The translations under genes were made by a program, and so were the position numbers. The notes beneath the pieces are model-generated. The model was not told the origin of the DNA, ran no database searches, and worked only from the letters and a program-made list of their open reading frames with translations. Positions 4,024-34,974 of a stretch of 37,380 nucleotides of DNA are shown here, in pieces; position 1 is the stretch's first letter; the number at the start of each line of letters is the position of its first letter. This DNA comes from a virus. The DNA lies in IMG/VR virus record IMGVR_UViG_3300037246_001497, positions 1 through 37,380 of that record. The stretch is one strand, 5' to 3'.

Positions 4024-4818
4024 TTAATCCGCCATTCGTAATCGTATTTTCTTAGTCCTAGAGCCTGGGGCGCTAAATTTATAAATAATCATAGTCCCAT
4101 TCGTGTCGGCTGCCGATAAATCGATCTTATAATCACCGTCGCTTATTTCTGTCGCGGGTGTATTAGTCATTGAAACAAAAGCACCACCATCAATTGACCT
4201 TTCGCAAAGAGGCGTTTTTAACAAAGCCGGTGAAACATCGTCCGAATCTAGCACCAATCCAAAAGAAAAATCTGGAGAGGCTGTATTTTTCTGGAACAAT
4301 CCGGGTAATGCGTCAGTTTTGATTTTAATATCATCCAATTTGGTGCTAGATGTTGCCTGGTTTCCTATTATAGTATCTTGTTTTGCCTCGGTAGCGTCAC
4401 CGAATCCAGTGGCTGTTTGCCATGAACCGGCCCCGTGAGCTGATTCTAATTCTGATAAAATTGTAGCTACTATTGTAGATGTATCAATAAAGGCTGGTAT
4501 TGTTCCGTCCTCTCTAGAGTTTGTATTTACCGCCTGATTGCCTACAATCACCTTATGGATCTCGTAAGTTTCCTCTGTAAGGTCGGCCCCACCGTTAGAT
4601 GTGAAACGCCAAAGACCGTCGGCGATATGCACTAAATTCACAAAAAGCTCACCAACAGAAGTGAAAGTCCCGGGGCCATTATCTAAATATCTATTGTTCG
4701 ATACTTTCCTGATAGACACTTGAGCCGTTGATAAACCCGAAGTAATACCAACCTTTTGATTGTTTTGTAGCTCCAGGCTTACGGCGACATTTGATCCGCT
4801 TCTCTTGATAACACTCAT
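4024..4818 (-). CDS. putative tail/baseplate structural protein (264 aa)
   Basis: The protein has an N-terminal beta domain (about residues 1-115), a middle stretch with HGAGSWQTATGFGDATEAKQ, a motif often seen in phage fibre and baseplate proteins, and a C-terminal beta domain ending in basic residues (KKIRLRMAD). It has no membrane segment or catalytic motif. Translation starts at an ATG after AAAAAGGTTTAATT. It lies between the hub gene and a DUF4376-like gene in the late operon, so a virion role is likely. The exact structure it joins is not shown. Confidence 0.5.
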   Translation of the reverse strand: MSVIKRSGSNVAVSLELQNNQKVGITSGLSTAQVSIRKVSNNRYLDNGPGTFTSVGELFVNLVHIADGLWRFTSNGGADLTEETYEIHKVIVGNQAVNTNSREDGTIPAFIDTSTIVATILSELESAHGAGSWQTATGFGDATEAKQDTIIGNQATSSTKLDDIKIKTDALPGLFQKNTASPDFSFGLVLDSDDVSPALLKTPLCERSIDGGAFVSMTNTPATEISDGDYKIDLSAADTNGTMIIYKFSAPGSRTKKIRLRMAD

Positions 4819-4830
4819 AATTAAACCTTT

Positions 4831-5397
4831 TTACCTGTCGTCAGTTATTGCGTCCACTGCAGCTTCATCGACAGCATCATTAACTTGAATCTTTATATCT
4901 CTGCCAGTATCTAAATGGGATTTTTTAGTGCCTAGCCCGTCTAAATGGTAAGCGTTTAGTTCTGACGTACTATTTACATCGTACCCATAATCGTCATCTT
5001 GAGTTATTGTAAGCGGATAATTAATAGCACCCACCTCAGAACTAGCGGATTTAGCCCCAGTACCATTTATTTGGGCCTCTGGAGAAAGAGAGAATTTTTT
5101 TCCATTATGCGTAAAACCATTGGAAATTAACTTACTTGTTTTAACATCAATTTTTTTCTTTCTCTTCTTCTTGTATCCGACAAGTTTTTCAGGTGCCGTT
5201 TCTACAACAGTTTCCCAAGACACTCCGTTCCATTTTTCATGGTCGGCAGTATCGTCATTTTTTTTGCAAGCTGCCGTGTAAGTAACATCAACTCTTTCGG
5301 TTTCATTAGCTGAATCGAACGATCCATCATTAGTAAAATCACAAAACCCTTTTCTTAAAAGAACCCCAGTCGCAGTTTCAATTACTCCATTCATCAT
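4831..5397 (-). CDS. DUF4376-like fibre-associated protein (188 aa)
   Basis: The first half is unrecognised and contains a lysine-rich run (VGYKKKRKKKIDVKTSKL). The second half follows the DUF4376 pattern found in tail-fibre assembly or fibre-attached proteins: NGFTHNGKKFSLSPEAQ, a dipping YPLTITQDDDYGYDV segment, and a helical end with DIKIQVNDAVDEAAVDAI. It overlaps the end of the upstream cysteine-cluster gene by 4 bp (ATGA), showing translational coupling. A fibre chaperone or fibre component are both possible. Confidence 0.45.
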   Translation of the reverse strand: MMNGVIETATGVLLRKGFCDFTNDGSFDSANETERVDVTYTAACKKNDDTADHEKWNGVSWETVVETAPEKLVGYKKKRKKKIDVKTSKLISNGFTHNGKKFSLSPEAQINGTGAKSASSEVGAINYPLTITQDDDYGYDVNSTSELNAYHLDGLGTKKSHLDTGRDIKIQVNDAVDEAAVDAITDDR

Positions 5398-5723
5398 AAA
5401 AACCCCACCATGTTATTTTCTCTCATTTCTAAACATCGAGCAGAACCTTTTTCAAATTGCTTACATTTGTCTGGTCTAGTCGAATAAATTTCACACTTAA
5501 CACTTTCGCCTATAACTCCGCTAAGAGCCTTACAACAAAATCCACCATTACAAGGTTTAAATCCCATGTGGTTTTTTTGCCATTCAAATTTAGATTTATA
5601 TACATCAGGTATCTTGCCCCACTCATCATTAGTTGCGTAGACTCTTAAATTAATATCAGTCTTGTCAGTGCAGCAAATACCGCATGTAACACAATCAAGC
5701 TCTTCTAAGTTAGAGATTGTCAT
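5394..5723 (-). CDS. YkgJ-like cysteine-cluster (Zn/Fe-binding) protein (109 aa)
   Basis: Ten cysteines are arranged as in the YkgJ / CxxCxxCC family (PF03692): C11, C14, C17 and C18 in CVTCGICC, C58, C63 and C64 in CNGGFCC, C77, then RPDKC87 and C97. The motif EIYSTRPDKCKQFEKG is the family signature 'IY..RP..C..F'. Members are thought to chelate zinc or an iron-sulphur cluster; biochemical roles are poorly known. The gene overlaps both neighbours (14 bp upstream, 4 bp downstream), so it is a genuine part of the tail operon and not a passenger in an intergenic gap. It could mature or cap a metal-containing tail protein, but that is speculation. Confidence 0.7.
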   Translation of the reverse strand: MTISNLEELDCVTCGICCTDKTDINLRVYATNDEWGKIPDVYKSKFEWQKNHMGFKPCNGGFCCKALSGVIGESVKCEIYSTRPDKCKQFEKGSARCLEMRENNMVGFL

Positions 5724-6453
5724 GATACCCTATTACTGATAAATCTAATTCATCATCATTATCCTCAACTTGATAATCTAAACTTTGAGCTGCATTTGTT
5801 ATCGGCTCTATGACCCCATACCCTTCTCTATTTTTATCTCCTTGCAGGTGTATTTTAAATCCAAGATCCGTAAGAGAAGATCCTGTTGGCCGTAATGTTG
5901 CAAAATCATTTTTATCGTCTGCTTCATAATTAAAAGCTAATATCGGAGCTGTGGAAGTAACAGGCATAAACGCTGACAGGCTTACAGCAGTATAAGACGT
6001 TGCTGACCCATTTGTTAGCACTCGTAATGTAGTTTCGTTAGTCAAATAAACCATGCGCCTATTGTTAGCGTTACCTTCTTGCGTAAAGTTTAATATATTA
6101 CTACTACTGTTATTTCTTACAGCTCCCACTCTTCTAAAATACTGGTAGCCTGCCGGCAATGTAGGGGTTGTTTGGTTTGTTGATAGTATGCCTGCGACCC
6201 CAGAAGAACCAGAAATAATATAACATGTGTAAAGCGTGTTTGCTGCTTCTGATCCTGTATCTAAGCCCCCTGCTCCTGAAGTGGAAATATCTACCGTTAG
6301 AGGGCTGGGATTTATAACATTGACAGAATCAGTGCTATCTCTACATTCTCCGACCCCTATAGATATTTGCCCGCTATTTATCCTCGTCAGTTTTAAATAG
6401 TTAAAGTTTCCTGGGGGAAGTATTAAAGGATCGCCACCAATTCTAGTACTCAT
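5710..6453 (-). CDS. putative tail fibre/appendage protein (247 aa)
   Basis: The protein contains GAGGLDTGSEAANTLYTCYI followed by LSTNQTTPTLPAGYQYFRRV, a pair of motifs recurrent in phage tail-fibre proteins ('GLDTGs.aa.T.Y..Y.I ... P.LP.GY...R.VG'). It is rich in Ser, Thr and Asn, with predicted beta structure and no cysteine network or membrane segment. The ATG follows TTGAGGTCCGTAA, and the 3' end overlaps the YkgJ-like gene by 14 bp. The fibre role is inferred from the motifs and from the operon. Confidence 0.55.
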   Translation of the reverse strand: MSTRIGGDPLILPPGNFNYLKLTRINSGQISIGVGECRDSTDSVNVINPSPLTVDISTSGAGGLDTGSEAANTLYTCYIISGSSGVAGILSTNQTTPTLPAGYQYFRRVGAVRNNSSSNILNFTQEGNANNRRMVYLTNETTLRVLTNGSATSYTAVSLSAFMPVTSTAPILAFNYEADDKNDFATLRPTGSSLTDLGFKIHLQGDKNREGYGVIEPITNAAQSLDYQVEDNDDELDLSVIGYHDNL

Positions 6454-6764
6454 TTACGGACCTCAATTTTTAAAGAATCTATCTGGCTTTGTAAAAAGTC
6501 TAGTTTCTCGAAATGAACTGAATCAATTTTTTTCACAATCGGCTTACCTTGGTTAATCACAATCTCTTTGACCGGGCCTCTAATTATTGGTAAAATAGTT
6601 TTTTGGCCTATAGGTATGATAACTAAAGTTGTAATAGTAGAACCGAAAAATAAGAAAGTACCCCCAACAGACACGACAACGCTCCAATTTTTCAGTAAAA
6701 GAGTAAAAAGCGACCAGATATAGGTAAACGCTTCTCTGTGTCCGATTTTCTTTTGATTAGTCAT
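6450..6764 (-). CDS. small membrane protein, holin or signalling partner candidate (104 aa)
   Basis: A hydrophobic segment spans about residues 30-53 (WSVVVSVGGTFLFFGSTITT and on), possibly with an earlier weaker one around 14-25. A soluble C-terminal tail follows, ending in an amphipathic helix (FEKLDFLQSQIDSLKIEVRK). It overlaps the genes on both sides by 4 bp and forms a tight trio with the membrane-anchored coiled-coil protein and the CheY-like receiver upstream. A holin is one reading, but the endolysin lies far away in another operon, so a membrane partner of the receiver is equally open. Confidence 0.45.
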   Translation of the reverse strand: MTNQKKIGHREAFTYIWSLFTLLLKNWSVVVSVGGTFLFFGSTITTLVIIPIGQKTILPIIRGPVKEIVINQGKPIVKKIDSVHFEKLDFLQSQIDSLKIEVRK

Positions 6765-7105
6765 TCCATTAATCCCGGTATTTTGTAAGGGTCAGTCCCG
6801 TCTTTTTGGATCAAGTAAATTAAACAGTTATTTATTCTAGTGAACCTTTTATCACCAACAGTTAAATTTTCTTGTATCTCTTTTACATCGTTTTTAACGC
6901 CTTGAACCTCATCTCCTATTCTGGTTTTAAAATCGACCATATCTTTTTTGTCAACTTTTAGATTTAAAGCTTTGATTAAGTTTGTATGATTTAGTGTGTT
7001 CTTGTTGAATAAATAATTCCAACCCCAAGAAAAAGCTTTTTGAAAAACGGTCAAAGCAAATAAAATGAGCGCCACGGTCAAAGGGCTTATTGTTATTTCT
7101 TTCAT
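6761..7105 (-). CDS. membrane-anchored coiled-coil protein (114 aa)
   Basis: An N-terminal membrane segment (about residues 8-22, PLTVALILFALTVFQ) is followed by an amphipathic region with heptad character (about 45-85, including DFKTRIGDEVQGVKNDVKEI). There is no cleavage site or lipobox. The start ATG overlaps the stop of the CheY-like gene (ATGA), and the 3' end overlaps the next membrane gene by 4 bp, so the three are probably made together. The pattern resembles phage spanin/holin-region proteins, but no family was recognised. Confidence 0.5.
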   Translation of the reverse strand: MKEITISPLTVALILFALTVFQKAFSWGWNYLFNKNTLNHTNLIKALNLKVDKKDMVDFKTRIGDEVQGVKNDVKEIQENLTVGDKRFTRINNCLIYLIQKDGTDPYKIPGLME

Positions 7106-7464
7106 TCATTTACCTCTAGCACTCCCATTTCAAATAATACTCGCTCGATCTCAACTTTATCCGCTCCACCATCCAAAAAGTGCTTGCAGCCCCGCTGCTT
7201 TGTCCCAACCTCTGCCCCTGGGTCTAATAAATACGACATCACGACAGTTTTTTCCTTTTGCTCATCAGTCATTCTTTCGAGAACCCCAAAACCGTCTAGT
7301 ATCGGCATTTGGAGGTCAAGAAATATTAGTTCATAATCATTTTCTAAAAGCTTCAATCCTTGTACGCCATCATAGGCAGAGTCAAAGCTTATTTTGTTTT
7401 TAAATTTGTGCTTTAATACAGTATGATAATCCTTTTGGTCATTTATGATCAGAGCTTTCAACAT
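7102..7464 (-). CDS. CheY-like response-regulator receiver domain (120 aa)
   Basis: This single-domain protein has the receiver fold pattern. A hydrophobic strand ends in N8-D9 of the acidic pocket, the phospho-acceptor is D50 in LIFLDLQMPILDGFGVLERM, and S77 sits at the switch Thr/Ser position in VVMSY. The usual Lys-Pro after the fifth strand is not clear: the region reads GCKHFLDGGADK, so K94 or K103 may replace it, or the site may be degenerate. Length is normal for a receiver without an output domain. It lies inside the late tail operon, 3 bp after the beta-helix gene and overlapping the next membrane gene. No histidine kinase is encoded in the genome, so any phosphodonor would come from the host. 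Confidence 0.8.
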   Translation of the reverse strand: MLKALIINDQKDYHTVLKHKFKNKISFDSAYDGVQGLKLLENDYELIFLDLQMPILDGFGVLERMTDEQKEKTVVMSYLLDPGAEVGTKQRGCKHFLDGGADKVEIERVLFEMGVLEVNE

Positions 7465-7467
7465 TTA

Positions 7468-8394
7468 TCATATCCCTATGAAAATACCTGTATGAATAGA
7501 TCCGCCGCCAACGCCACCCGCTGAAGGAGGGGGAAAGGGTTCTGGTTGATGAATTCCCATTGGGAAGATATCGCCCATAGGGTTCTGATCCACGTCCTCA
7601 GTGAAAAAAGCTGATAAATCTAAACCAACATTCCACAGGACAGAGCTTGAATCTATATGAAAATCCACTCCGTCATTTACAAAATTCATGCTCGCTAGCG
7701 TTTGGTTTATAAGAGAGCCTGCACCCGGAGCGGTGGCATCTGTCGAACAGTTATTACTTCCTGTAACTACACCATTAAAATCATTGAAAACAGTATTAAT
7801 AGCCACGCAATTATTGCATATAAGAGTCGTAAAAGCATCATGTGTAAACCCATTATCATCGCAACCATACGCAATACAATTATAAGCATAAAAAGTATTA
7901 TTAGCATTGAATCCTTGGAATCCGTTTCCATTAGGGGCGTTTGCAATGCAATTTATAGCTCGACCATGTCCTGTAAACACAAAAGCACCTTTTGAGTTAA
8001 ATAATCCTTTAGATCTACATCTTAAGAAAAGAGTGTTGTTCGCATTAGCGTCTATCCTAAACCCTCTCTGTACGGTAGCAGTATATGTAAGTTGAATATC
8101 TCTTATCTGGCAATAATCAGAAGTTATCTTAAACCCATCTCCATTAAATAAATTGTTAATCACTATAACTCCACCATCCATAATACCAGCGGACTCGGCA
8201 CCACTTGCGGCTCTCACGATAATATGATCGTCTGCCGACTCGTTCGCAAACCCATCAATATTGACTATTTCGTTATAGCTACCCGCTTCCATAACAACCT
8301 CATGTACCCCTTGTCCGGACAAATTGGGAGGGATAGCGGCTATAGCAGCCCCTAAGGTTGCATAAACACTAGGTACATCATAGATAGTGGACAT
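7468..8394 (-). CDS. right-handed beta-helix tail appendage / depolymerase-like protein (308 aa)
   Basis: Repeated short strands with Asn and Cys ladders (for example CRSKGLFNSKGAFVFTGHGR, YNCIAYGCDDNGFTHDAF, CNNCVAINTVFNDFNGVV) are typical of parallel beta-helix proteins such as pectate-lyase-like tailspikes. The N-terminus has the YATLGAAIAAIP motif often found before such helices, and the C-terminus is a glycine/proline-rich linker (PFPPPSAGGVGGG). No catalytic residues can be assigned. The gene is in the tail operon, starting at an ATG after GAGGTTTAA. A polysaccharide-binding or degrading appendage is the best guess. Confidence 0.65.
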   Translation of the reverse strand: MSTIYDVPSVYATLGAAIAAIPPNLSGQGVHEVVMEAGSYNEIVNIDGFANESADDHIIVRAASGAESAGIMDGGVIVINNLFNGDGFKITSDYCQIRDIQLTYTATVQRGFRIDANANNTLFLRCRSKGLFNSKGAFVFTGHGRAINCIANAPNGNGFQGFNANNTFYAYNCIAYGCDDNGFTHDAFTTLICNNCVAINTVFNDFNGVVTGSNNCSTDATAPGAGSLINQTLASMNFVNDGVDFHIDSSSVLWNVGLDLSAFFTEDVDQNPMGDIFPMGIHQPEPFPPPSAGGVGGGSIHTGIFIGI

Positions 8395-8763
8395 TTAAAC
8401 CTCAGTGAAAATAAAATTGGAAAAAGTTAACTGACCACCAAGGCCAGGATCAACGGGTCCACGTTCTGAAAGGGCTTCTAATTCACCTGAAGAAAAACAA
8501 TTTAGATCTACATTTGTTCTAGGTGTAAGTACAACGTCTTGCTCATCTTTGATTGGAGAGTTTAAATATTTTTCTATTTCTTCATGTTGTTCGGTTGTAA
8601 TGTCTACATCTTTCCAATAAAAAATTTCTTTCATTTTATCAGCAAGATCCCAATCACCACAGCAGTCACCACTGCATATCTGAACAACTCTTCCCACAAG
8701 TTTACCATTGGGTACGCCTTCAACAGAAGATAGGTTCCTAGAAATTAAAACAGTGTATATCAC
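8395..8763 (-). CDS. hypothetical late-operon protein (122 aa)
   Basis: I do not recognise the family. A cysteine patch (CSGDCCGDWDLADKMKEIFY, about residues 30-50) is followed by an acidic helical stretch. The ATG overlaps the last base of the upstream gene's stop (TAATG-type junction), and the 3' end abuts the beta-helix gene. Its position between small tail genes suggests a structural or assembly role. Confidence 0.5.
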   Translation of the reverse strand: MIYTVLISRNLSSVEGVPNGKLVGRVVQICSGDCCGDWDLADKMKEIFYWKDVDITTEQHEEIEKYLNSPIKDEQDVVLTPRTNVDLNCFSSGELEALSERGPVDPGLGGQLTFSNFIFTEV

Positions 8764-9029
8764 TAAGCTAGTCCCGTTACACTAGTTACGCCTGATGTGC
8801 CTATAATGGTGTACTTTTTCACTGTGATGGCGTAAATTGCCCCACCTTTTACAGGTATTGTTTGCGGCGTGTCATCTAAAGCAACCACACCCAAAACACC
8901 ATCAACGTCAGGTATAAACGCCCTTGGGTAATCCTCTTTGTTCGTGGTAGGGTCTACGATTGTTCTTTCTAAAGTATCATCTAGAGCAAAAGTTTGTGGC
9001 TTTGGTGATGATTTGGTACGATTCGACAT
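8763..9029 (-). CDS. small structural protein candidate (88 aa)
   Basis: The sequence begins basic and disordered (MSNRTKSSPKPQTFALDD) and then has a compact beta-like part (VLGVVALDDTPQTIPVKGGA, IYAITVKKYTIIGTSG). It starts after a GAGGTTTAA ribosome site like its neighbours. No family was recognised. The beta content and late-operon position fit a small virion decoration or tail-tip accessory. Confidence 0.45.
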   Translation of the reverse strand: MSNRTKSSPKPQTFALDDTLERTIVDPTTNKEDYPRAFIPDVDGVLGVVALDDTPQTIPVKGGAIYAITVKKYTIIGTSGVTSVTGLA

Positions 9030-9047: not shown

Positions 9048-9815
9048 TTATTCATTCCAGTAAGCAAGATCTCTTGCAAACGTGATACTTAAATTCCAAT
9101 CACAAAAGCCCTGTCGACCCAAATCATCCCATCGAATAACTCGACAATTAAATGGACCTAAACCGGCTCTCGTACCAAATGGATATAAAATATTTCCGAA
9201 CGTAGGGAAAGGTATTTTCTTTGCTCTTGCTGTAGTTGATAGGTAACGGCGAATAGCGGCCATTTCGTCACGGTCTTGATTGAACCTAGCCTGGTAGGTA
9301 CCGGCTTCAGTACCGTCTTGAGCGAGATGATCCTGAATATAGATATCCTGATCATAAGTGAATAATTTATTCATTTCAAAAACCGTTTCTCTTGTATCTA
9401 CATGACCCAAAGTTCTTAAGGTATCAAGCGAGGTGACCACGTTAATAAAACTGGGGTCAACCATTCTCAAGCTTAAGCTCATCTCGTAAACTTTAAATGA
9501 AACGTGCCTTATTTTACCGTAACCAGTGACAATCACCTTAACGTCGCCAGTGTGGTCCACATCGGCCCCGAATATTTCTTCACCAGAGTTACAATTTATG
9601 ATAAAATTCGCTCGCCTTTGAGCCAAAACTAGCTCTAAATCGGTTAATTCATCAATCGGCCCTCGAAAAGTCACGTCTGCGCTGTAAATATCCTCATCAG
9701 CGGACCTATCACAGCCTCGCCAGTTTGAATCGGCCCGTTGAGCCCATTTAAGAGATAATTTAGTCTGCGGCTTATATTTCCAAAGCACTAGAACTGATCG
9801 ACCATCCCAGATCAT
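9048..9815 (-). CDS. putative distal tail protein (255 aa)
   Basis: The gene directly follows the tape measure and overlaps it by 4 bp, the usual place for the distal tail protein (Dit) in siphophages. The product is beta-rich with many aromatic residues (IWDGRSVLVLWKYKPQTKLS and DWNLSITFARDLAYWNE at the two ends). No specific Dit signature could be confirmed by eye, so the name rests on synteny and size. Confidence 0.5.
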   Translation of the reverse strand: MIWDGRSVLVLWKYKPQTKLSLKWAQRADSNWRGCDRSADEDIYSADVTFRGPIDELTDLELVLAQRRANFIINCNSGEEIFGADVDHTGDVKVIVTGYGKIRHVSFKVYEMSLSLRMVDPSFINVVTSLDTLRTLGHVDTRETVFEMNKLFTYDQDIYIQDHLAQDGTEAGTYQARFNQDRDEMAAIRRYLSTTARAKKIPFPTFGNILYPFGTRAGLGPFNCRVIRWDDLGRQGFCDWNLSITFARDLAYWNE

Positions 9816-22623: not shown

Positions 22624-23130
22624 TTGAGCAAATCTATGCAAGAGCTAGATCCAAATAAAGAGATCATTTCCGAAGAGGAAAAGAAAACTCGCCTAGCGAT
22701 TTTTGATGATAATCATGTAGCTATAACTCAGGCTTATTGGGGCTTTATTGAGCAAAATAACAGGATGCCCACTTATTCATGGGTAGCCGAGGAAACGGGC
22801 CTTGCGCTTAATACCGTTCGCACTCATCTAAAAAGCTACAAAGAGAAAGACCTCAAGGATCAAGTAGAGAAATTCAAAATTTTTAGCGATGACGTAATGT
22901 TAGGCCAAATAAAGAGGGCCAGAGAGGGTGGTCACGGTTCAACGGATGCGGCTAAACTGTATTATCAAATAGTCCATAACTTCAAACCTGGATTAGAGTT
23001 AAGTATCAAGAAAGGTACGGATTACGGTAAAATGACCCTAGATGAGCTTACAGAGCTACAAAAGCAGAAGGTAGATAAATTTGAATCAAAACTCCTCCGA
23101 CTCGCAAGAGATCGCGATACTCCAAGCTGA
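22624..23130 (+). CDS. putative small terminase subunit (168 aa)
   Basis: It lies just upstream of, and overlaps by 50 bp, the large terminase gene. Residues about 45-75 form a helix-turn-helix (PTYSWVAEETGLALNTVRTH), and the rest is helical, ending in a charged coiled coil, as in DNA-recognising small terminase subunits. TTG at 22624 is used, supported by AAAGGGA about four bases upstream; an ATG at 22636 is an alternative start. The assignment depends on HTH plus synteny. Confidence 0.65.
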   Translation: MSKSMQELDPNKEIISEEEKKTRLAIFDDNHVAITQAYWGFIEQNNRMPTYSWVAEETGLALNTVRTHLKSYKEKDLKDQVEKFKIFSDDVMLGQIKRAREGGHGSTDAAKLYYQIVHNFKPGLELSIKKGTDYGKMTLDELTELQKQKVDKFESKLLRLARDRDTPS

Positions 23131-24592
23131 AACCGAGCAAATCCAGTTAGAGATTGAGCGGCGAATTTGTCGTGCTTCTTTGTACGGAACTGTTCGGACG
23201 TTTTGGGATGTGATAATCCCTGATCCATTTAGGTATAACTGGCATATTGAATATTTGTGTAATGAGATGCAAAAGGTTGGCCAATGGGTAATTGATCGTG
23301 AACCGTCGAAATATGATTTAATTATAAATGTGCCTCCTGGAACGACTAAATCGACAATTTGCTCTGTTTTCTTCCATGTTTGGCTTTGGATAAATGCGCC
23401 TTGGATACGAATGATTTCAGCTTCACACACAAATGATTTGGCTATTGAGCACTCTATTCTGGCCCGTGACGTAATGAAATCACAGAAATTTAGGACGTTA
23501 TTTCCTCATAGGGTCAATTTTAAGTCAGATCAAGATAATAAAACTTACTACCGTAATATGCGGGGCGGCTCTCGGGTAGCGACTTCTGTCGGCGGTAATA
23601 TCATGGGAAAACACGGTCATATAATTACGATAGATGATTTAATCGACCCAAAAAAGACCGCTTCAGACGTAGAACGGGAAAAGGCAAATGATTATATCTC
23701 TCGGACTTTATCGACAAGAAAAGTTGACAAAGAAAATACCCCCACAGTTTTGATAATGCAGCGTTTGCACGAATTAGACCCGACTGGGTTTTTATTGTTT
23801 AAGGCTGAAGAATCAGGCAAGAGGATCAAGCACATTTGCTTGCCTGGTGATGATGCTTTAGGGAATATTAAGCCCCATTTATTGAAATTCATGTATAAAG
23901 ACGGGCTTTTAGATCCAAATAGGCTAAATAAGAACGCTTTAAAAATAATGGAGGTTGATTTAGGCGAAAGTGATTTCACTGGCCAGGTTAGACAGTCACC
24001 TCAAGCCCCGGGCGGTAATATTCTTAAAAGGGAGTGGTTTAAGCCATACGAAGATTTACCCAAAGAAAGACCTATATCCAAAATTCAGAGTTGGGATACT
24101 GCGTTTAAAAAGACTGAGACTTCGGCTTATAATTGCGGTTTGACGTTCTATGAGTACCGAAATGGGTATTATCTCGAGGATGCAATTTTTGAAAAGATGG
24201 AATATCCAGAGCTTAAGGCTGAAATATTATCATACGAGGCAAAGCACAGCCCGAATATTGTTCTAGTGGAGGATAAGGCCACAGGTACCCCGATTATTCA
24301 AGAATTGAGCCGAGACAATAAGATTAATTTTATATCGATATTGCCCGAGGGTGATAAGGTGCAAAGGGCTCATGCAAGTTCTAGTACTGTCAAGGCCGGA
24401 AATGTTTATATTCGTAGCAATGCAACTTGGAGCCACAAATTAACAAATCAATTGATCCTTTTTCCAAATTGCCAGATTAAAGATATTATGGATGCTTTCT
24501 CACAGTACATAAATTATATCAGAGATAACCCCAGTGTGCCAATAACTAGAATGGTTGGCGGCGGGAAGTCTAAAGTCACTAGAAATTACTAA
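23081..24592 (+). CDS. terL: terminase large subunit (503 aa)
   Basis: The packaging ATPase/nuclease. A Walker A-like VPPGTTKST is at residues 84-92, and a Walker B IITIDDLID around 175-185 follows GNIMGKHG. The C-terminal RNase H-like nuclease begins with QSWDTAFKKTETSAYNCGLT (first acidic residue in 'WD') and continues to IVLVEDKATGTPIIQEL, which carries the second acidic site. This is the Mu gp28 / Terminase_6 style. It starts with TTG inside the previous gene. It pulls DNA into the prohead through the portal encoded next. Confidence 0.9.
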   Translation: MNQNSSDSQEIAILQAETEQIQLEIERRICRASLYGTVRTFWDVIIPDPFRYNWHIEYLCNEMQKVGQWVIDREPSKYDLIINVPPGTTKSTICSVFFHVWLWINAPWIRMISASHTNDLAIEHSILARDVMKSQKFRTLFPHRVNFKSDQDNKTYYRNMRGGSRVATSVGGNIMGKHGHIITIDDLIDPKKTASDVEREKANDYISRTLSTRKVDKENTPTVLIMQRLHELDPTGFLLFKAEESGKRIKHICLPGDDALGNIKPHLLKFMYKDGLLDPNRLNKNALKIMEVDLGESDFTGQVRQSPQAPGGNILKREWFKPYEDLPKERPISKIQSWDTAFKKTETSAYNCGLTFYEYRNGYYLEDAIFEKMEYPELKAEILSYEAKHSPNIVLVEDKATGTPIIQELSRDNKINFISILPEGDKVQRAHASSSTVKAGNVYIRSNATWSHKLTNQLILFPNCQIKDIMDAFSQYINYIRDNPSVPITRMVGGGKSKVTRNY

Positions 24593-24601
24593 TAGGTTAT
24601 T

Positions 24602-26074
24602 ATGACAAATCCAAGAATCCGAGATAAAGATTTTAAAGTAAGCGACTCGAAATACAGTAGGGGTAACTCAATAGATGCTTTTGCCACGGCTGACGTATTG
24701 CCCAATCCCGATCCAGTATTAAACACTCAAAACAGTTTGGCTACTTGGCAGAATTTTAGAAATATCTTTTGGGATCCACATTTGACCGCTGTTATAGCTT
24801 CAAGAAAATCGGTTACTTTATCAAAAAAATGGTATATCGAGGGAGGTAAATCACCGTCTAGAGTACGTAAATTCATTGAGAAAAATTTTGAAAACCTTGA
24901 TATTCATAGGGCCACTGAAGAAATCTTAGACGCTCCTTTTTTCGGCATGCAGGCAATGGAGCCTATTTGGGGTAGCCCTGAAGGTGTCGAAGGTGAGAAC
25001 AAGATATTTTGCAAAGAGTTCACTGGTCGCCCTGCTTGGTGGTTTCAATACGACAAAGAGAATAAGCTTAGATTCAGATCAAAAGAGAATTTCTGGCCTG
25101 GTGATCCTGTCGAAGATATGAGTTTAATCGTGGCTAGGAATAACCCAAAGTATGAGAATCCTTATGGAGAGGCTCTTTTGAGTAAAATTTACTGGTCGGT
25201 TAATTTCAAGAAAGCAGCTTTTAAGTATTGGGTTGAATTCGCTGAAAAAAATGGTTCTCCTTACGGTGTCGGGAAGGTTCCTAGAAACGCCGGTGATAAA
25301 GAATATGACGAGCTTTTAGAAAGAATTCAAGAAATGGTTAGAGGCTCGTCTGTCGTTATACCTGATGATTCTAGCCTTGAATTTATTTCATCTGGAAGCA
25401 AATCAAGCGCGGATATCTATAAAGACCTAATGAACGCTGCAAATCAAGAAATTTCAAAGGCGATCCTAGGCCAAACCCTTACAACGGAATCAGGTGAGAA
25501 AGGATCTAGGGCGCTAGGCCAGGTGCATGATAACGTAAGGCTTGATATCGCCGAAGCCGATGAAATAATGGCCGAAACTTGCTTTAATGTGCTTATCCGG
25601 TGGATTGTAGATATAAATTTTGGTCCAAATGTTGTGGCTCCTACGTTTAAATATGAGCATGAAAAGGATATTAAAAAGGATCTAGCCGAAAGGGATAAAA
25701 TATTAAGTGAATTAGGTGTTAAGTTTGATGCCGAATATTTTAAAGAAATTTATAATTTGGCCGATAATCACTTCACAATGGTTGAGCCTGTTGTAACTGA
25801 GTTACAAGATGAGCCAGAGTTTCGAGAGGCTTCTGAATTTGAAGATCAGAAAGCTGTGGATAATTTTATTAATGGTTTGACTAATAAAGAGCTTCAAAAG
25901 GATTCAGAGTTTTTAGAGCCAATAATAAAAATGATTGAGAAAGCTAGTTCATTTGAAGAGGCTCAAGGCGCTTTAATAAGCCTGTTTCCTGAAATTAGGC
26001 CAAAACGATTAGAAAAGTTATTAGGCAGGGCTCTTTTTTCAACTCAAAGTTTGACTAGAAATACAGGGGATTAA
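24602..26074 (+). CDS. Mu gp29-like portal protein, DUF935 (490 aa)
   Basis: Family pattern of the Mu portal: DPHLTAVIASRKSVTLSKKW (about residue 60), FFGMQAMEPIWGS, PYGEALLSKIYWSVNFKKAA and FKYWVEFAEKNGSPYGVGK, then AILGQTLTTESGEKGSRALG. These are well-known DUF935 signatures. The portal forms the dodecamer through which DNA is packaged. It starts 9 bp after terL and shares one base with the MuF-type gene (TAATG). Confidence 0.9.
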   Translation: MTNPRIRDKDFKVSDSKYSRGNSIDAFATADVLPNPDPVLNTQNSLATWQNFRNIFWDPHLTAVIASRKSVTLSKKWYIEGGKSPSRVRKFIEKNFENLDIHRATEEILDAPFFGMQAMEPIWGSPEGVEGENKIFCKEFTGRPAWWFQYDKENKLRFRSKENFWPGDPVEDMSLIVARNNPKYENPYGEALLSKIYWSVNFKKAAFKYWVEFAEKNGSPYGVGKVPRNAGDKEYDELLERIQEMVRGSSVVIPDDSSLEFISSGSKSSADIYKDLMNAANQEISKAILGQTLTTESGEKGSRALGQVHDNVRLDIAEADEIMAETCFNVLIRWIVDINFGPNVVAPTFKYEHEKDIKKDLAERDKILSELGVKFDAEYFKEIYNLADNHFTMVEPVVTELQDEPEFREASEFEDQKAVDNFINGLTNKELQKDSEFLEPIIKMIEKASSFEEAQGALISLFPEIRPKRLEKLLGRALFSTQSLTRNTGD

Positions 26075-26820
26075 TGGCAATTTCTGAAGATATCATTACC
26101 GACGCTTCGGCAGTATCCCCAGAGCAAGCAATCAAGATTTTTGACGCTCAAGGGATTGCTATAGCAACAACCTCCGTCGAAACAATAAAAGCGGTTCAAA
26201 AAAAGGTTTTTGCTATCACCCAAGACGTTCAAATGAGCGTGATTCAAGAGGTTCGCAATGCCCTTTCTAAAGCCTTAAAAGAGGGGCAGACTTTTGAATC
26301 ATTCCAAAAGGATTTTTTAAACACTTTATCAAAAAAAGGTTGGCTTGGACAAAGAACATCTATAGTTGGCGGCGAAGAGATTAAAGTACTTACGACCCCG
26401 TACCGTTTAAGGACCATATACAGGACTAATATTCAATCGGCGTTAAATGCCGGTAGATTTGAACGACAGGTCGCTAATGCGTCTGATAGACCCTTCTTAA
26501 TGCTAATTGACGGTATTATCGAGAACTCTAGGCGATCACACAAAACCCAATCAGGATCAATACAGCCGATCACCTCAAAATTTTGGAAAGCTCCTAATTC
26601 TTGGTATCCTCCAAACGGGTTTAATTGTACTGGCAGAACCACATCGCTTACAAGAGCTGAAGCCAAAAGCCGTGGAATTAGAATCAATAACCGAGCATTA
26701 AAGCCAGACCCAGGTTTTGGATTCAACCCCGCGACTGAATCATTTAAGCCTAAAAAAGAATATTTTGATCAAGATATTTGGGACGCGGGCCAGGATTTAG
26801 AACCGAGCGCTTTGAAATGA
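26074..26820 (+). CDS. MuF (gp30)-like minor head morphogenesis protein (248 aa)
   Basis: The middle carries TTPYRLRTIYRTNIQSALNA (residues about 108-127), and the end has NSWYPPNGFNCTGRTTSLTR, the variant of the conserved 'PP.hfNCrC' motif of MuF / SPP1 gp7 proteins. The expected second cysteine pair is reduced: one Cys only, with Thr following. It sits after the portal as in Mu and overlaps the next gene by 4 bp. Confidence 0.85.
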   Translation: MAISEDIITDASAVSPEQAIKIFDAQGIAIATTSVETIKAVQKKVFAITQDVQMSVIQEVRNALSKALKEGQTFESFQKDFLNTLSKKGWLGQRTSIVGGEEIKVLTTPYRLRTIYRTNIQSALNAGRFERQVANASDRPFLMLIDGIIENSRRSHKTQSGSIQPITSKFWKAPNSWYPPNGFNCTGRTTSLTRAEAKSRGIRINNRALKPDPGFGFNPATESFKPKKEYFDQDIWDAGQDLEPSALK

Positions 26821-27239
26821 TAAAAGTCACCACAAAGTCAACAGAGGTTCACGCTCTATTTAAGCAACTAGGGTTTAATGTTTTTAGTATTAAACCCGCT
26901 TTAGTTAAAATTGGAGGCGTTTTAGAGCGTGCAAGCGAAAACGCTTTTAATCGACATGGACCGGGTTGGAAACCGCTAAAGCCCGCAACAAAAAAGCAAA
27001 GAGCCAAAAAAGGTCATACCGGCGGTATCTTACAAAGAACAGGTGCGTTGGCAAACTCGGTTTCCTCTCAAATCAGGGGTAACTCTGTTTTTGTTGGGTC
27101 AAATCTTGAGTACGCTAGGATTCATCAAATGGGATCTAGAAAAAAGAAAATTCCAAAGCGAGAATATTTAATAATATCAGAATCAGAGATTAGAAAAGCT
27201 AGTTTTATATTGGATAGGCATATTAAAAAGGACATATGA
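26817..27239 (+). CDS. Mu gpG-like virion morphogenesis / tail completion protein (140 aa)
   Basis: The true start is the ATG at 26817 coupled to the previous stop (ATGA). The motif series NRHGPGWKPLKPATKKQRAK, GGILQRTGALANSVSSQIRG and EYARIHQMGS identifies the gpG / Phage_tail_S family (PF05069). Its usual neighbours, the MuF protein upstream and head genes, are present. It probably stabilises or completes the head-tail joint. Confidence 0.85.
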   Translation: MIKVTTKSTEVHALFKQLGFNVFSIKPALVKIGGVLERASENAFNRHGPGWKPLKPATKKQRAKKGHTGGILQRTGALANSVSSQIRGNSVFVGSNLEYARIHQMGSRKKKIPKREYLIISESEIRKASFILDRHIKKDI

Positions 27240-27502: not shown

Positions 27503-27925
27503 CTTATCTCGCTTCATGGATTCAACCCTGTTTGAGTAGAATTTTAAGTGGATCTCTAACTCTTCAACGGTAGTCCTTACAAATTGTTTAGATAATTGCC
27601 TTAATAATTCTGGGGTACCAATATCATAGGTTTTAGTTAAAAAAGCCTCGTATTGTTCTAGATTGCCCCCTAGCCTACAATTACAGTTTTCGCATTGAGG
27701 ATGACAGTTTTTTTCCATCCATCTAGTGGAAATATTCCAACGGTTTACAAAATGCCCGTTTTGCATACGGTCCCAAGAATCAATTCTATTGCAAGTGCAG
27801 CACTTAGTAAAACCCCATTCATCGGCATTGAATAGCCTAATGTACTGGGAAAAAACGGTATCTAGTCGCTTTTCTAGGGCTTTCTTGTGTATTTTAGTGA
27901 TCTTAGGGTCCATCCTCTGAGCCAC
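27491..27925 (-). CDS. ninG: NinG/Rap-like recombination protein (144 aa)
   Basis: Metal-binding knuckle CCTC at residues 42-45, then MQNGHFVNRWNISTRW and NCHPQCENCN with RLGGNLEQYEAF, are NinG (lambda Rap) signatures; Rap is a Holliday-junction endonuclease. GTG at 27925 or ATG at 27913 may be the start; neither has a good ribosome site because the region lies inside the endolysin gene. It overlaps the Mor-like gene tail to tail. Confidence 0.8.
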   Translation of the reverse strand: MAQRMDPKITKIHKKALEKRLDTVFSQYIRLFNADEWGFTKCCTCNRIDSWDRMQNGHFVNRWNISTRWMEKNCHPQCENCNCRLGGNLEQYEAFLTKTYDIGTPELLRQLSKQFVRTTVEELEIHLKFYSNRVESMKRDKSIS

Positions 27926-28437
27926 TTGAACTTAACCGGCTTTGCATAACACTTACTAAAGTATAGATTTATGCGCTCTTGTACAATGACATTTGCAAAC
28001 TGAGAACTGGCACCGTTTAATTTGCTTATTGTGGCGGGTCCAATTAAACCATCCACAACCAAACAGTTTTTGAAATACTTGTTTATGGTTTCTTGAAAGA
28101 ACCTAACAGCCGATCTTTTCCCTAGATTAATACCGCAATCAAAAAGGTGCTCGGCAAACAATGGATCTTTGATTTTATGGCATTTTAGAGGGACCCAGAA
28201 ATATTTGTAATAAAAAGCGTCAACCATTTTGTTTAATTTGAAGTCATTGAACTTTTCATTATTTTTTATTTTACGGCCCGCATTTTTCTTGATTCGGTCA
28301 ATTATCGCCCACCCTTCCCACTTAGGCCAGAATTTTCTCGCGATTCCAATATAAGTTTCCTTTCCTTCGTCATCAGGATCATTAGCGTAGCCACCCTCAG
28401 AGCGCCTCACATCATACATTGCAGTTTTAAAGCTCAC
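27874..28437 (-). CDS. GH108 endolysin with peptidoglycan-binding tail (187 aa)
   Basis: The N-terminus has the catalytic SEGGYANDPDDEGKETYIGI (E14 being the likely acid), followed by the usual helices (KLNKMVDAFYYKYFWVPLKC, LFAEHLFDCGINLGKRSAVR). A C-terminal PG_binding_3-like part has VVDGLIGPATISKLNGASSQ. It has no signal peptide, so it needs a holin. It overlaps the upstream frameshifted gene and the downstream ninG-like gene. Confidence 0.9.
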   Translation of the reverse strand: MSFKTAMYDVRRSEGGYANDPDDEGKETYIGIARKFWPKWEGWAIIDRIKKNAGRKIKNNEKFNDFKLNKMVDAFYYKYFWVPLKCHKIKDPLFAEHLFDCGINLGKRSAVRFFQETINKYFKNCLVVDGLIGPATISKLNGASSQFANVIVQERINLYFSKCYAKPVKFKWLRGWTLRSLKYTRKP

Positions 28438-30691: not shown

Positions 30692-31255
30692 TTAATCCAC
30701 AATATTAAATCCCAATCCAAGCAAAAAATCCTTTACCTGTGATTGTCTTATTTTACCTGATCCACCCTTTCCGTAAAATTTACAGTGTTGTAATTCTATA
30801 CCGCTAAGATCCGAGCCGCGAAGATTCGAGCCGCTAAGATCCGAGTCGCGAAGATTCGAGCCGCTAAGATCCGAGCCGCTAAGATCCGAGTCGCGAAGAT
30901 CCGAGTCGCTAAGATCCGAGTCGCGAAGATTCGAGCCGCTAAGATCCGAGCCGCGAAGATTCGAGCCGCTAAGATTCGAGCAGCTAAGATCCGAGCCGCT
31001 AAGATCCGAGTCGCGAAGATCCGAGTCGCTAAGATCCGAGCCGCTAAGATCCGAGTCGCGAAGATTCGAGCCGCTATTTACCGCTTCAATCACAGCCTCT
31101 TTGAATGTGGTTTTTGAAGATGAGTAAATAATTTCGCCCAACCTATTTTTAATATGAATCTTCTTTTCGATTTTTTCTTTGACTTTCGCCTCTTCGGCTT
31201 CAATTTGATCTTTTAAATTTTTGTAAGCTTCGTCTGATATGTTTAGTGTTTTCAT
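30692..31255 (-). CDS. pentapeptide-repeat protein with coiled-coil N-terminus (187 aa)
   Basis: The ATG at 31255 (AAAAAAGGGA upstream) is chosen over a TTG-type start further up. Residues 1-45 are a charged helix (EAYKNLKDQIEAEEAKVKEK), then NRLGEIIYSS, and 18 perfect pentapeptides follow (about residues 62-151) of the form S-G/D-S-D/N-L or R-D-S-D-L. The C-terminus is a small globular part (GKGGSGKIRQSQVKDFLLGL). The family folds as a right-handed quadrilateral beta helix and can mimic DNA. The extreme Ser/Asp bias makes this copy strongly acidic. Role in the phage is unknown; gyrase or nuclease interference is one possibility. Confidence 0.8.
   Translation of the reverse strand: MKTLNISDEAYKNLKDQIEAEEAKVKEKIEKKIHIKNRLGEIIYSSSKTTFKEAVIEAVNSGSNLRDSDLSGSDLSDSDLRDSDLSGSDLSCSNLSGSNLRGSDLSGSNLRDSDLSDSDLRDSDLSGSDLSGSNLRDSDLSGSNLRGSDLSGIELQHCKFYGKGGSGKIRQSQVKDFLLGLGFNIVD
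30801..31070 (-). repeat. eighteen tandem 15-bp repeats encoding the pentapeptides
   Basis: Plus-strand unit consensus is ccgctaagatccgag; variants differ at only a few positions (c/t at 1, t/g at 5, c/t at 11, one c-to-a at 2). The period is exactly one pentapeptide, and alternation of unit types hints at larger blocks duplicated in recent expansion. Confidence 0.95.
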
Positions 31256-31413
31256 GGTTAATCCCTTTTTTAAACACTTCGCCCGACCAGTTGCAAGCAA
31301 ACTGCTACGTAAAAACTCGCGAGGTCAGCCGGACGAAGATTCTTAAATTTTAAATTCTGATTTCATAGCAGTTGAGGTTTAATATACAAAATGATTTTCA
31401 AATGGGTAGGTAC

Positions 31414-31561: not shown

Positions 31562-31732
31562 TCACCTCTTTGGAAAATATTCATTTATATAGATTACTGT
31601 TTTTCTCAATTCCTCTTCACAATCCGTCGGGTACTTTGACTCAATAACCGTTCTTACATTCGGGTTGATAAAGTCGTATATGTTGTACGCCAACAGAAAG
31701 CAAAAGATTAATAGGAAAAATTCAGATTTCAT
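31562..31732 (-). CDS. small membrane-anchored protein (56 aa)
   Basis: An N-terminal hydrophobic segment (FFLLIFCFLLAYNIYDFI, residues 5-22) could be an anchor or uncleaved signal. The rest is soluble and contains one Cys (YPTDCEEELRKTVIYINEYF). The ATG overlaps the upstream gene's TGA (ATGA). Function unknown. Confidence 0.6.
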   Translation of the reverse strand: MKSEFFLLIFCFLLAYNIYDFINPNVRTVIESKYPTDCEEELRKTVIYINEYFPKR

Positions 31733-31890
31733 CTAAGCAATTTTAATATGGCAGATATCCCACCCAAAAAAACTATTGCGATAACAAAACCGGCCCAGAA
31801 AGGCGCAGTTACCCACAACCACGACCATGCGATCACGCCTGTTAATTTTAACACTATGAATACTATTCCTAAAACTCCTAATATTGGCAT
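31729..31890 (-). CDS. two-helix membrane protein, 'Fragile-X-F'-type phage family (53 aa)
   Basis: Almost entirely hydrophobic: two membrane spans flank VIAWSWLWVTAPFWAG, the motif of the small phage proteins annotated as transmembrane Fragile-X-F proteins ('KLTGVI.WSWWWV..P.W'). The ATG follows CAAGGGAGTAAGT. Role unknown; it could affect the host membrane. Confidence 0.65.
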   Translation of the reverse strand: MPILGVLGIVFIVLKLTGVIAWSWLWVTAPFWAGFVIAIVFLGGISAILKLLR

Positions 31891-32730: not shown

Positions 32731-33117
32731 TTAATTCTTTTCTATCTGACTATAATCCACTTCATTAGGGGATTCTATATCGATACCCAACACTAAAGAC
32801 CCATACCTCTGAATATCTTCTAAAAACTTAATCCATTGCACAGTAGTTAGTTTTGAAGTAGGTATTATAAATGTTCCAATTTTGTCATCAAAAAACTGTA
32901 GAAACTTGAATTTAACGATCTCTTTGGCCATCTCCCTACTTACTTTCTTACCTGAAAGCCTAGTCATAGCCTCAGATAATTGACCTAAAACAGGGCCATG
33001 AAAATGGCGGTTTTGACCATTAGTTCTCTTTTTCTTGAGTTTTTCAATAGTGTAATCCCCATCTTTTAAATCAGACAGGGATTCAGCTATTTTACCGTTT
33101 TTGATTTCAATTTTCAT
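32731..33117 (-). CDS. ninB: NinB-like recombination protein (128 aa)
   Basis: The core KRTNGQNRHFHGPVLGQLSE, then MAKEIVKFKFLQFF and STTVQ-like helix (TSKLTTVQWIKFLEDIQRYG), follows NinB (lambda Orf), which helps load recombinase on single-stranded DNA. Length is close to that of NinB (about 146 aa). It sits downstream of the Sak4-like ATPase in the same operon, consistent with a recombination module. Confidence 0.65.
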   Translation of the reverse strand: MKIEIKNGKIAESLSDLKDGDYTIEKLKKKRTNGQNRHFHGPVLGQLSEAMTRLSGKKVSREMAKEIVKFKFLQFFDDKIGTFIIPTSKLTTVQWIKFLEDIQRYGSLVLGIDIESPNEVDYSQIEKN

Positions 33118-33284
33118 TCAATCTTTTCGTTTAAAAGATGAAGCATAATATTATCTATCCTATCAATATTATCATTTAAAAGTTTAATCTCTTTTCGTTG
33201 GTCTGTTAGCTCATAATATTGGTTTAATAGACAAATAACCACTAGAGACAGAATTAAGAGATCTAAAATTATAATTAATTGCAT
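33114..33284 (-). CDS. small membrane-anchored coiled-coil protein (56 aa)
   Basis: The hydrophobic N-terminus (LIIILDLLILSLVVICLL, residues 3-20) is followed by a polar coiled coil (QRKEIKLLNDNIDRIDNIML). The start lies in the end of the upstream gene, and the TGA overlaps the next ATG (ATGA). Function unknown. Confidence 0.6.
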   Translation of the reverse strand: MQLIIILDLLILSLVVICLLNQYYELTDQRKEIKLLNDNIDRIDNIMLHLLNEKIE

Positions 33285-34773: not shown

Positions 34774-34974
34774 TTATAAATTGTTTTCTATATCCTCTAA
34801 TATGTTGTCAATTTCGTTTATATTTCTTTGTTGATTCAATAGCAGTTTCACGCGCTCAAACATGAGTTGGTGAGATTCGGAAACTTCCCTTAATTTCCGC
34901 CTCTCTCTAATATACATATATATCAAAAAAAGGTTACTTAAAAATGAAATAGTCATCCATGTAACGACACTCAT
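34774..34974 (-). CDS. small membrane protein with coiled-coil tail (66 aa)
   Basis: A membrane helix (residues 5-22, TWMTISFLSNLFLIYMYI) is followed by a basic patch (RERRKLRE) and an acidic coiled coil (QQRNINEIDNILEDIENNL). It overlaps the HTH-like gene upstream by 4 bp. It is the third single-pass coiled-coil protein of this operon. Confidence 0.6.
   Translation of the reverse strand: MSVVTWMTISFLSNLFLIYMYIRERRKLREVSESHQLMFERVKLLLNQQRNINEIDNILEDIENNL

Follow-up and report, generated by a model that had tools for sequence, protein, structure and literature searches.

CheY-like receivers in Alteromonas phages V22 and A5

Stand-alone genes encoding CheY-like receivers have already been published as parts of phage host-recognition modules. 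In the Alteromonas phages V22 and A5 such a gene is located behind the tail fibre gene (PMC10579305), a CheY-like module was also reported in P24, and the CheY of V22 was classed as an auxiliary metabolic gene (PMC7289586, PMC10579305). Two further phage proteins are relevant for comparison. These are: (i) cREC, the cyclic-phosphate-processing receiver of jumbo phages, which, like the protein described below, is a phage-encoded receiver fold outside a kinase system (PMC7824862) and (ii) PIT4 of phage LSL4, a protein that binds histidine kinases (PMC10714779). For receivers in general, Bourret et al. (2025) defined a pseudo-receiver (PsR) as a receiver by profile that is missing any one of the five active-site residues (PMC12632262).

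The window (i.e. the whole stretch of viral DNA analysed here, a record of 37,380 bases) carries in its late operon three adjacent genes, which encode a receiver-fold protein and two small membrane proteins (Table 1). In the first-pass annotation this trio was presented as a possibly undescribed phage signalling module, which might redirect a host two-component pathway or act in the timing of lysis. A BFVD match of the window receiver model led to V22, and its locus was compared with that of A5 and with those of metagenomic relatives (contigs L122, L123 and L125/L126).

In V22 (L117, NC_048847) the CheY-like gp30 is encoded in the late operon, after the tail fibre, the fibre's chaperone and a papain-like protein. 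The V22 gp31 is an Rz-like spanin (phrog_4297, E = 7e-6), as is gp12 of A5 (phrog_4297, E = 3e-8), and an unannotated ORF of V22 (at about 26492-26791), overlapping the end of gp31, encodes a 99-aa lipoprotein (MLKKSAILFLLILTGCSTT...) with a lipobox. From their sequences, gp31 and this lipoprotein look like an Rz/Rz1 spanin pair beside gp30, the overlap being as in Rz1; the o-spanin lipoprotein was found in V22, L122 and L125/L126. The V22 gp32 is small, with two hydrophobic segments, and is of the holin type as judged by architecture only. A lysin was recognised in A5, L123 and L125/L126 (gp14 of A5 is annotated as an endolysin, and an M15 peptidase, PF08291, E = 8e-11, was found at the equivalent place in L125). 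The order of products, i.e. a protein with a hydrophobic N-terminus and a coil, the receiver, the Rz-like i-spanin and the holin-like protein with two transmembrane segments (TM), is the same in V22, A5 and the three contig loci, and in each of these five distinct loci the i-spanin gene starts within the receiver gene, with 26-35 nt in common. Since spanins, a two-TM holin-like protein and a lysin surround the CheY-like gene, the receiver sits within a lysis cassette. Neither paper uses the terms "holin" or "spanin" in its main text (PMC7289586, PMC10579305), and a literature search combining CheY-like genes with lysis cassettes found nothing; thus, the lysis-cassette reading of the V22/A5 locus may be new to the literature. 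By analogy with these loci, a role in lysis timing appears a sensible idea for the window, while the association is not undescribed in kind, as the host-recognition modules cited above were published before.

Comparison of the window receiver with V22 gp30 and A5 gp11 revealed several common features: each is a small stand-alone receiver, encoded in a late operon, adjoining tail-fibre genes and accompanied by small membrane or coiled-coil proteins. Unlike the window protein, the V22 and A5 receivers have a complete active site (D7 D8 D53 S83 K105), and the identity in the alignment is 23-24%. Their neighbours are recognisable as Rz-like spanin, o-spanin and holin-like proteins, whereas the membrane proteins of the window are not homologous to them, and the gene order differs, as the window trio has the receiver first. 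Homology of the window membrane proteins to gp29, gp31 and gp32 of the V22/A5 cassette was considered and rejected: the profile scores were within those of shuffled controls, and the best rank (15th of 500) was not significant over six tests.

The late operon of the window phage

Terminal redundancy is suggested by a near relative that matches the two ends of the window over about 129 common bases. The gene content is that of a siphovirus-like phage: a portal and an F protein of the Mu type, a protease for head maturation, a major head protein of phrog_1005 and a tape measure protein. The terminase, portal and F-like genes are located on the plus strand (22624-27239) and the protease, capsid and tail genes on the minus strand (from 18758 downward), and the same split between opposite strands was observed in the relative L135. 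The terminase is closest to those of Cellulophaga phages (41%), and distant matches of the major capsid protein were found in 13 of 398 Pseudomonadota genomes and in none of 395 Bacteroidota genomes; a proteobacterial host is favoured as the probable one.

The three minus-strand ORFs of the trio are present as first described, follow one another with overlaps of 4 nt, and lie, as claimed, inside the late structural/tail operon, with a tail protein/tape measure gene on one side and the tail tip on the other. The translational coupling proposed for them is real, but it is not peculiar to the trio: the overlaps reach on into 5710-6453, 5394-5723 and 4831-5397, which form with the trio a single overlapping run (7464-4831), and therefore coupling belongs to the whole late run. 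Promoters and terminators near the trio were no more numerous than in shuffled sequences. Within the same run, the product of 5394-5723 is a CxxCxxCC zinc/iron-chelating domain protein (PF03692, barely over the cut-off), flanked by two tail-fibre-like genes. The downstream gene product weakly resembles the second domain of Mtd, i.e. the major tropism determinant.

Table 1. Features of the window discussed in the text.
Feature	Position	Strand	Basis
Stand-alone receiver-fold protein, 120 aa, pseudo-receiver (N8 D9 / D50 / S77 / G99)	7102..7464	-	PF00072; model; Foldseek and VIA matches to receivers; residue counts against 39 receivers
114-aa membrane protein, N-terminal TM and charged, probably coiled-coil tail; holin-associated/spanin-like candidate	6761..7105	-	TM at residues 3-21; no family; 4-nt overlap with receiver gene
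104-aa membrane protein, holin candidate	6450..6764	-	A single clear TM at residues 32-50, preceded by a weaker hydrophobic helix; no family; overlaps of 4 nt with both adjacent genes
Upstream gene, repetitive 308-aa protein, probable beta-helix receptor-binding/tailspike protein	7468..8394	-	Appearance of the sequence; no Pfam or PHROG family match
Downstream gene, likely receptor-binding protein	5710..6453	-	4-nt coupled; weak resemblance to Mtd second domain (PF21916, E = 0.009); phrog_17105, E = 4e-13
GH108 muramidase, endolysin of the phage	27874..28437	-	PF05838, E = 3e-19; phrog_315 (lysis), E = 9e-25; NF040573 (holin-associated muramidase) under cut-off

A receiver fold with an incomplete active site

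The 120-aa product is a true receiver-fold protein, as was claimed from its sequence, and both the profile and the predicted structure agree on this. PF00072 matches it over residues 5-76 only, with 36.5 bits against a curated cut-off of 30.2 (E = 6e-9), and solved receivers were retrieved with it by sequence (E = 4e-7). Its model (pLDDT 94.5) contains all ten (beta-alpha)5 elements (E2-7 H11-20 E25-30 H33-39 E46-49 H58-71 E73-77 H82-90 E95-98 H103-112), aligns with solved receivers with a Z score of 19 (19.4 to 3gl9) and, in BFVD, matches viral receivers and kinases. As the alignment used for modelling consisted of 39 other receivers, the model alone is weak proof of the fold; the profile match is evidence independent of it. 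The last third of the protein has diverged, and the sequence matches mostly end near residue 77-92. Some apparent phage homologues were discarded: the receiver match with the top E-value among "phages", MT835718, has 255 aa and is a bacterial protein of the Spo0A type, encoded on a contig that carries bacterial genes, and the matches in "phage" records from Listeria and from fecal samples appear to stem from contaminating bacterial DNA.

Residues at the active-site positions were counted in the same 39 receivers. D9 and the phospho-acceptor D50 are kept in the window protein (Asp in 39 of 39 comparators at both positions), as is S77 (26 Thr and 13 Ser). The first acidic position (DD1), occupied by Asp in 25 comparators and Glu in 14, is Asn8, and the conserved Lys (38 Lys and 1 Arg) is replaced by Gly99, followed by Gly100, where 36 of the 39 have Pro. 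The T+1 residue is Tyr78, for which 29 comparators have Ala, three Gly and none Tyr; small residues at this position accompany access to the phosphorylation site (PMC12632262). The protein has also kept Pro54 (D+4), Gly58 (D+8) and the aromatic residue at K-3 (F96), a pattern to be expected if a receiver had recently decayed or been repurposed.

Two of the five active-site residues (two acidic, Asp, Ser/Thr and Lys) are thus missing, and the protein lacks the set that marks a phosphorylatable CheY-type receiver. Together with the PF00072 match, this makes it a pseudo-receiver under the published definition (PMC12632262), and phosphorylation by host kinases, on which the first-pass annotation had relied, is therefore unlikely to drive it. 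The statement that D9, D50 and S77 are rightly placed proved correct for these three conserved positions but not for the site as a whole, which is incomplete at N8 and G99; the original observation is real, and "phosphorylated receiver" should become "pseudo-receiver". No histidine-kinase ATPase domain was detected in the phage by a search that was positive in control genomes. With the described PsR domains (PMC12632262) the window protein shares the profile match and the loss of active-site residues; it differs from them in being stand-alone, phage-encoded and part of a late operon, and in having kept the phospho-acceptor Asp.

Further relatives are the chromosomal CheY-like receivers of Rheinheimera, Shewanella and Leeia (L036, L043, L071 and L091), which are also stand-alone, about 120 aa long and 26-30% identical to the window receiver. 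The likeness runs through the C-terminal helix (FLDGGADKVEIERVLFEMGV / FLQKPLQSEQLREVLFEVGL), over which those of L036, L071 and L043 are the most alike of the chromosomal ones. Unlike the window protein, they have a complete active site and a chromosomal setting, in an operon of receiver, CheC-like protein and PAS kinase or cyclase (neighbours named by sequence inspection). In L036 (2905-5188), L071 (2857-5083) and L043 (2920-4863) the receiver gene is followed by a CheC/CheX-like gene and then by the PAS kinase or cyclase gene. The window receiver is probably not a cREC, the structural match being weaker (TM 0.66, rank 24 in BFVD); no NAD/ADP-ribose-processing enzyme was found among those neighbours with a family match, many neighbours having none.

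Membrane proteins and the putative role of the trio

A clear TM segment was found in both small membrane proteins (KD peaks of 2.02 for the 114-aa and 1.70 for the 104-aa product). The description of the latter as a second membrane protein was thereby borne out, and of the membrane-anchored coiled coil proposed for the former the anchor is clear and the coiled coil plausible. Neither protein had a significant match in Pfam, PHROGs or NCBIfam, lysis (holin/spanin) families included. A single-sequence model of the 104-aa product was uninformative (pLDDT 51) and was set aside. The endolysin gene is placed in the early/middle operon, beside a NinG-like gene and with no recognised holin adjoining, while the only small TM proteins within the late operon are those of the trio; a lysis function can thus reasonably be proposed for the pair. 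The early operon contains four more small TM ORFs whose starts are plausible (including 31729-31890, 33114-33284 and 34774-34974), and these could include the holin. The first of them (minus strand) encodes a 53-aa hydrophobic protein of a family without known function (phrog_1374, E = 9e-16) and is another holin candidate. No embedded Rz1-like ORF or lipobox o-spanin was detected in the window with a filter by which the o-spanin of V22 is recovered.

We tentatively favour a lysis-linked reading, in which the pseudo-receiver works with the membrane pair in a late cassette of the lysis type. In it, a protein in which Asp50 is kept while the catalytic Lys and an acidic ligand of Mg2+ are gone would most likely act through partner binding and not by phosphorylation switching. 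Together with two small membrane proteins, it would have been inserted where the late operon is variable, with the genes for the tail protein and the tail tip on either side, and the two membrane proteins would most likely be of the lysis type, i.e. the holin, or a partner of it, that serves the GH108 endolysin, whose gene lies elsewhere. Made late and in coupled amounts, the receiver would most likely work with this membrane-protein cassette, with either the cytosolic part of the pair or a host signalling protein as its probable docking site, and such docking may affect when, or whether, the membrane opens. The receiver profile and predicted fold, the losses in the active site, the gene overlaps, the accessory nature of the trio and the parallel in other phages were observed directly, and the lysis role of the membrane proteins and the partner and effect of the receiver are the conjectural parts of this proposal.

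The V22/A5 parallel makes such a role more credible, and the arrangement of a receiver beside membrane proteins recurs in other phages, its function in the window phage being putative. A scan with the major capsid protein identified a syntenic relative (L135, record G798, 42.6 kb, major capsid protein 59% identical). In the interval bounded by its counterparts of window 9048-9815 and 4024-4818, it encodes a 69-aa protein with a coil and a TM, a large protein with repeats and two small soluble products, and no receiver was found in this relative. The interval is therefore variable and the trio accessory, and a small coil/TM protein is present in this late interval in both phages, which speaks for the lysis-linked reading. 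Against it stand the position of the endolysin gene, 20 kb away in another operon, the lack of detectable homology of the pair to V22/A5 cassette proteins or holin/spanin families, the early small TM ORFs, the absence of a lipobox o-spanin from the window, the complete site of the V22-type receivers and the identity of all copies of the trio.

The main rival explanation, only slightly less probable in our view, is that the pseudo-receiver serves host takeover as a decoy: it would attach to the DHp domain of at least one histidine kinase of the host, or else to some other host protein that binds receivers, and block or retune a host pathway late in infection, with the membrane proteins as independent neighbours. 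The model best matches receivers solved in complex with histidine kinases (HK853-RR468), a resemblance that is, however, common to receivers generally. F96 at K-3, Pro at D+4 and Gly at D+8 have been retained, competing for binding is a proposed role of pseudo-receivers (PMC12632262), and the auxiliary metabolic gene status given to the V22 CheY agrees with such a role. PIT4 provides a functional, not a sequence-based, precedent for kinase binding by a phage protein (PMC10714779). This explanation names neither a partner nor a host, and it leaves the recurrent placement beside small membrane proteins unexplained. If true, it would be a receiver-shaped addition to the phage proteins targeting two-component systems.

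An unlikely alternative treats the trio as a passenger (moron) block, which came with a receptor-binding gene block and has no lysis or signalling role that matters to the phage, its receiver decaying. The trio was found again in four other IMG/VR contigs, though it was found in a single phage genus only and all copies are DNA-identical through 4831-9029. Outside this block the same phages are 93-95% identical, and the neighbouring tail tip reaches 76% at the protein level; the block looks like the result of a recent exchange or sweep of a host-recognition region. This pattern, the accessory nature of the trio and the decayed active site all fit a passenger. Nevertheless, the receiver ORF is intact and overlaps the downstream gene by 4 nt, its predicted core is high-confidence throughout, and dead genes are seldom retained in small phage genomes. 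Since all copies are identical in DNA, they say nothing on selection, and calculation of dN/dS is impossible. No homologues of the membrane proteins were found beyond this genus in viral contigs, phages, genome contigs and 398 Pseudomonadota genomes (two of the searches were run without a positive control).

Least probable, and in our view very unlikely, is the original proposal of an Asp50 phosphorylated by a host kinase, with signalling from this form of the receiver to the membrane proteins, for although D9, D50 and S77 and the predicted fold are intact, the changes of Lys to Gly99 and of an acidic residue to Asn8, and a bulky Tyr at T+1, accompany loss of phosphorylation-dependent function (PMC12632262).

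A broader generalisation of the lysis-linked reading, which we consider improbable at present, is that receiver-fold proteins have come to lie in the late membrane/lysis cassettes of phages time and again, where a protein of the two-component type would tune the timing of lysis, phosphorylatable in the Alteromonas phage lineage and phosphorylation-independent here. Should holins or spanins be the targets of receivers encoded in lysis cassettes, the timing of phage lysis would be tied to host two-component signalling, a link for which no report was found in the literature searched. As V22 and A5 have cultured hosts, the idea of a receiver in a lysis cassette is directly testable there.

In the early region of the window, the product of 30692-31300 (minus strand) is 38% identical to a protein encoded at 8926-9597 of contig L138 that contains ADLTGAYLRGADL-type repeats, which points to a pentapeptide-repeat protein.
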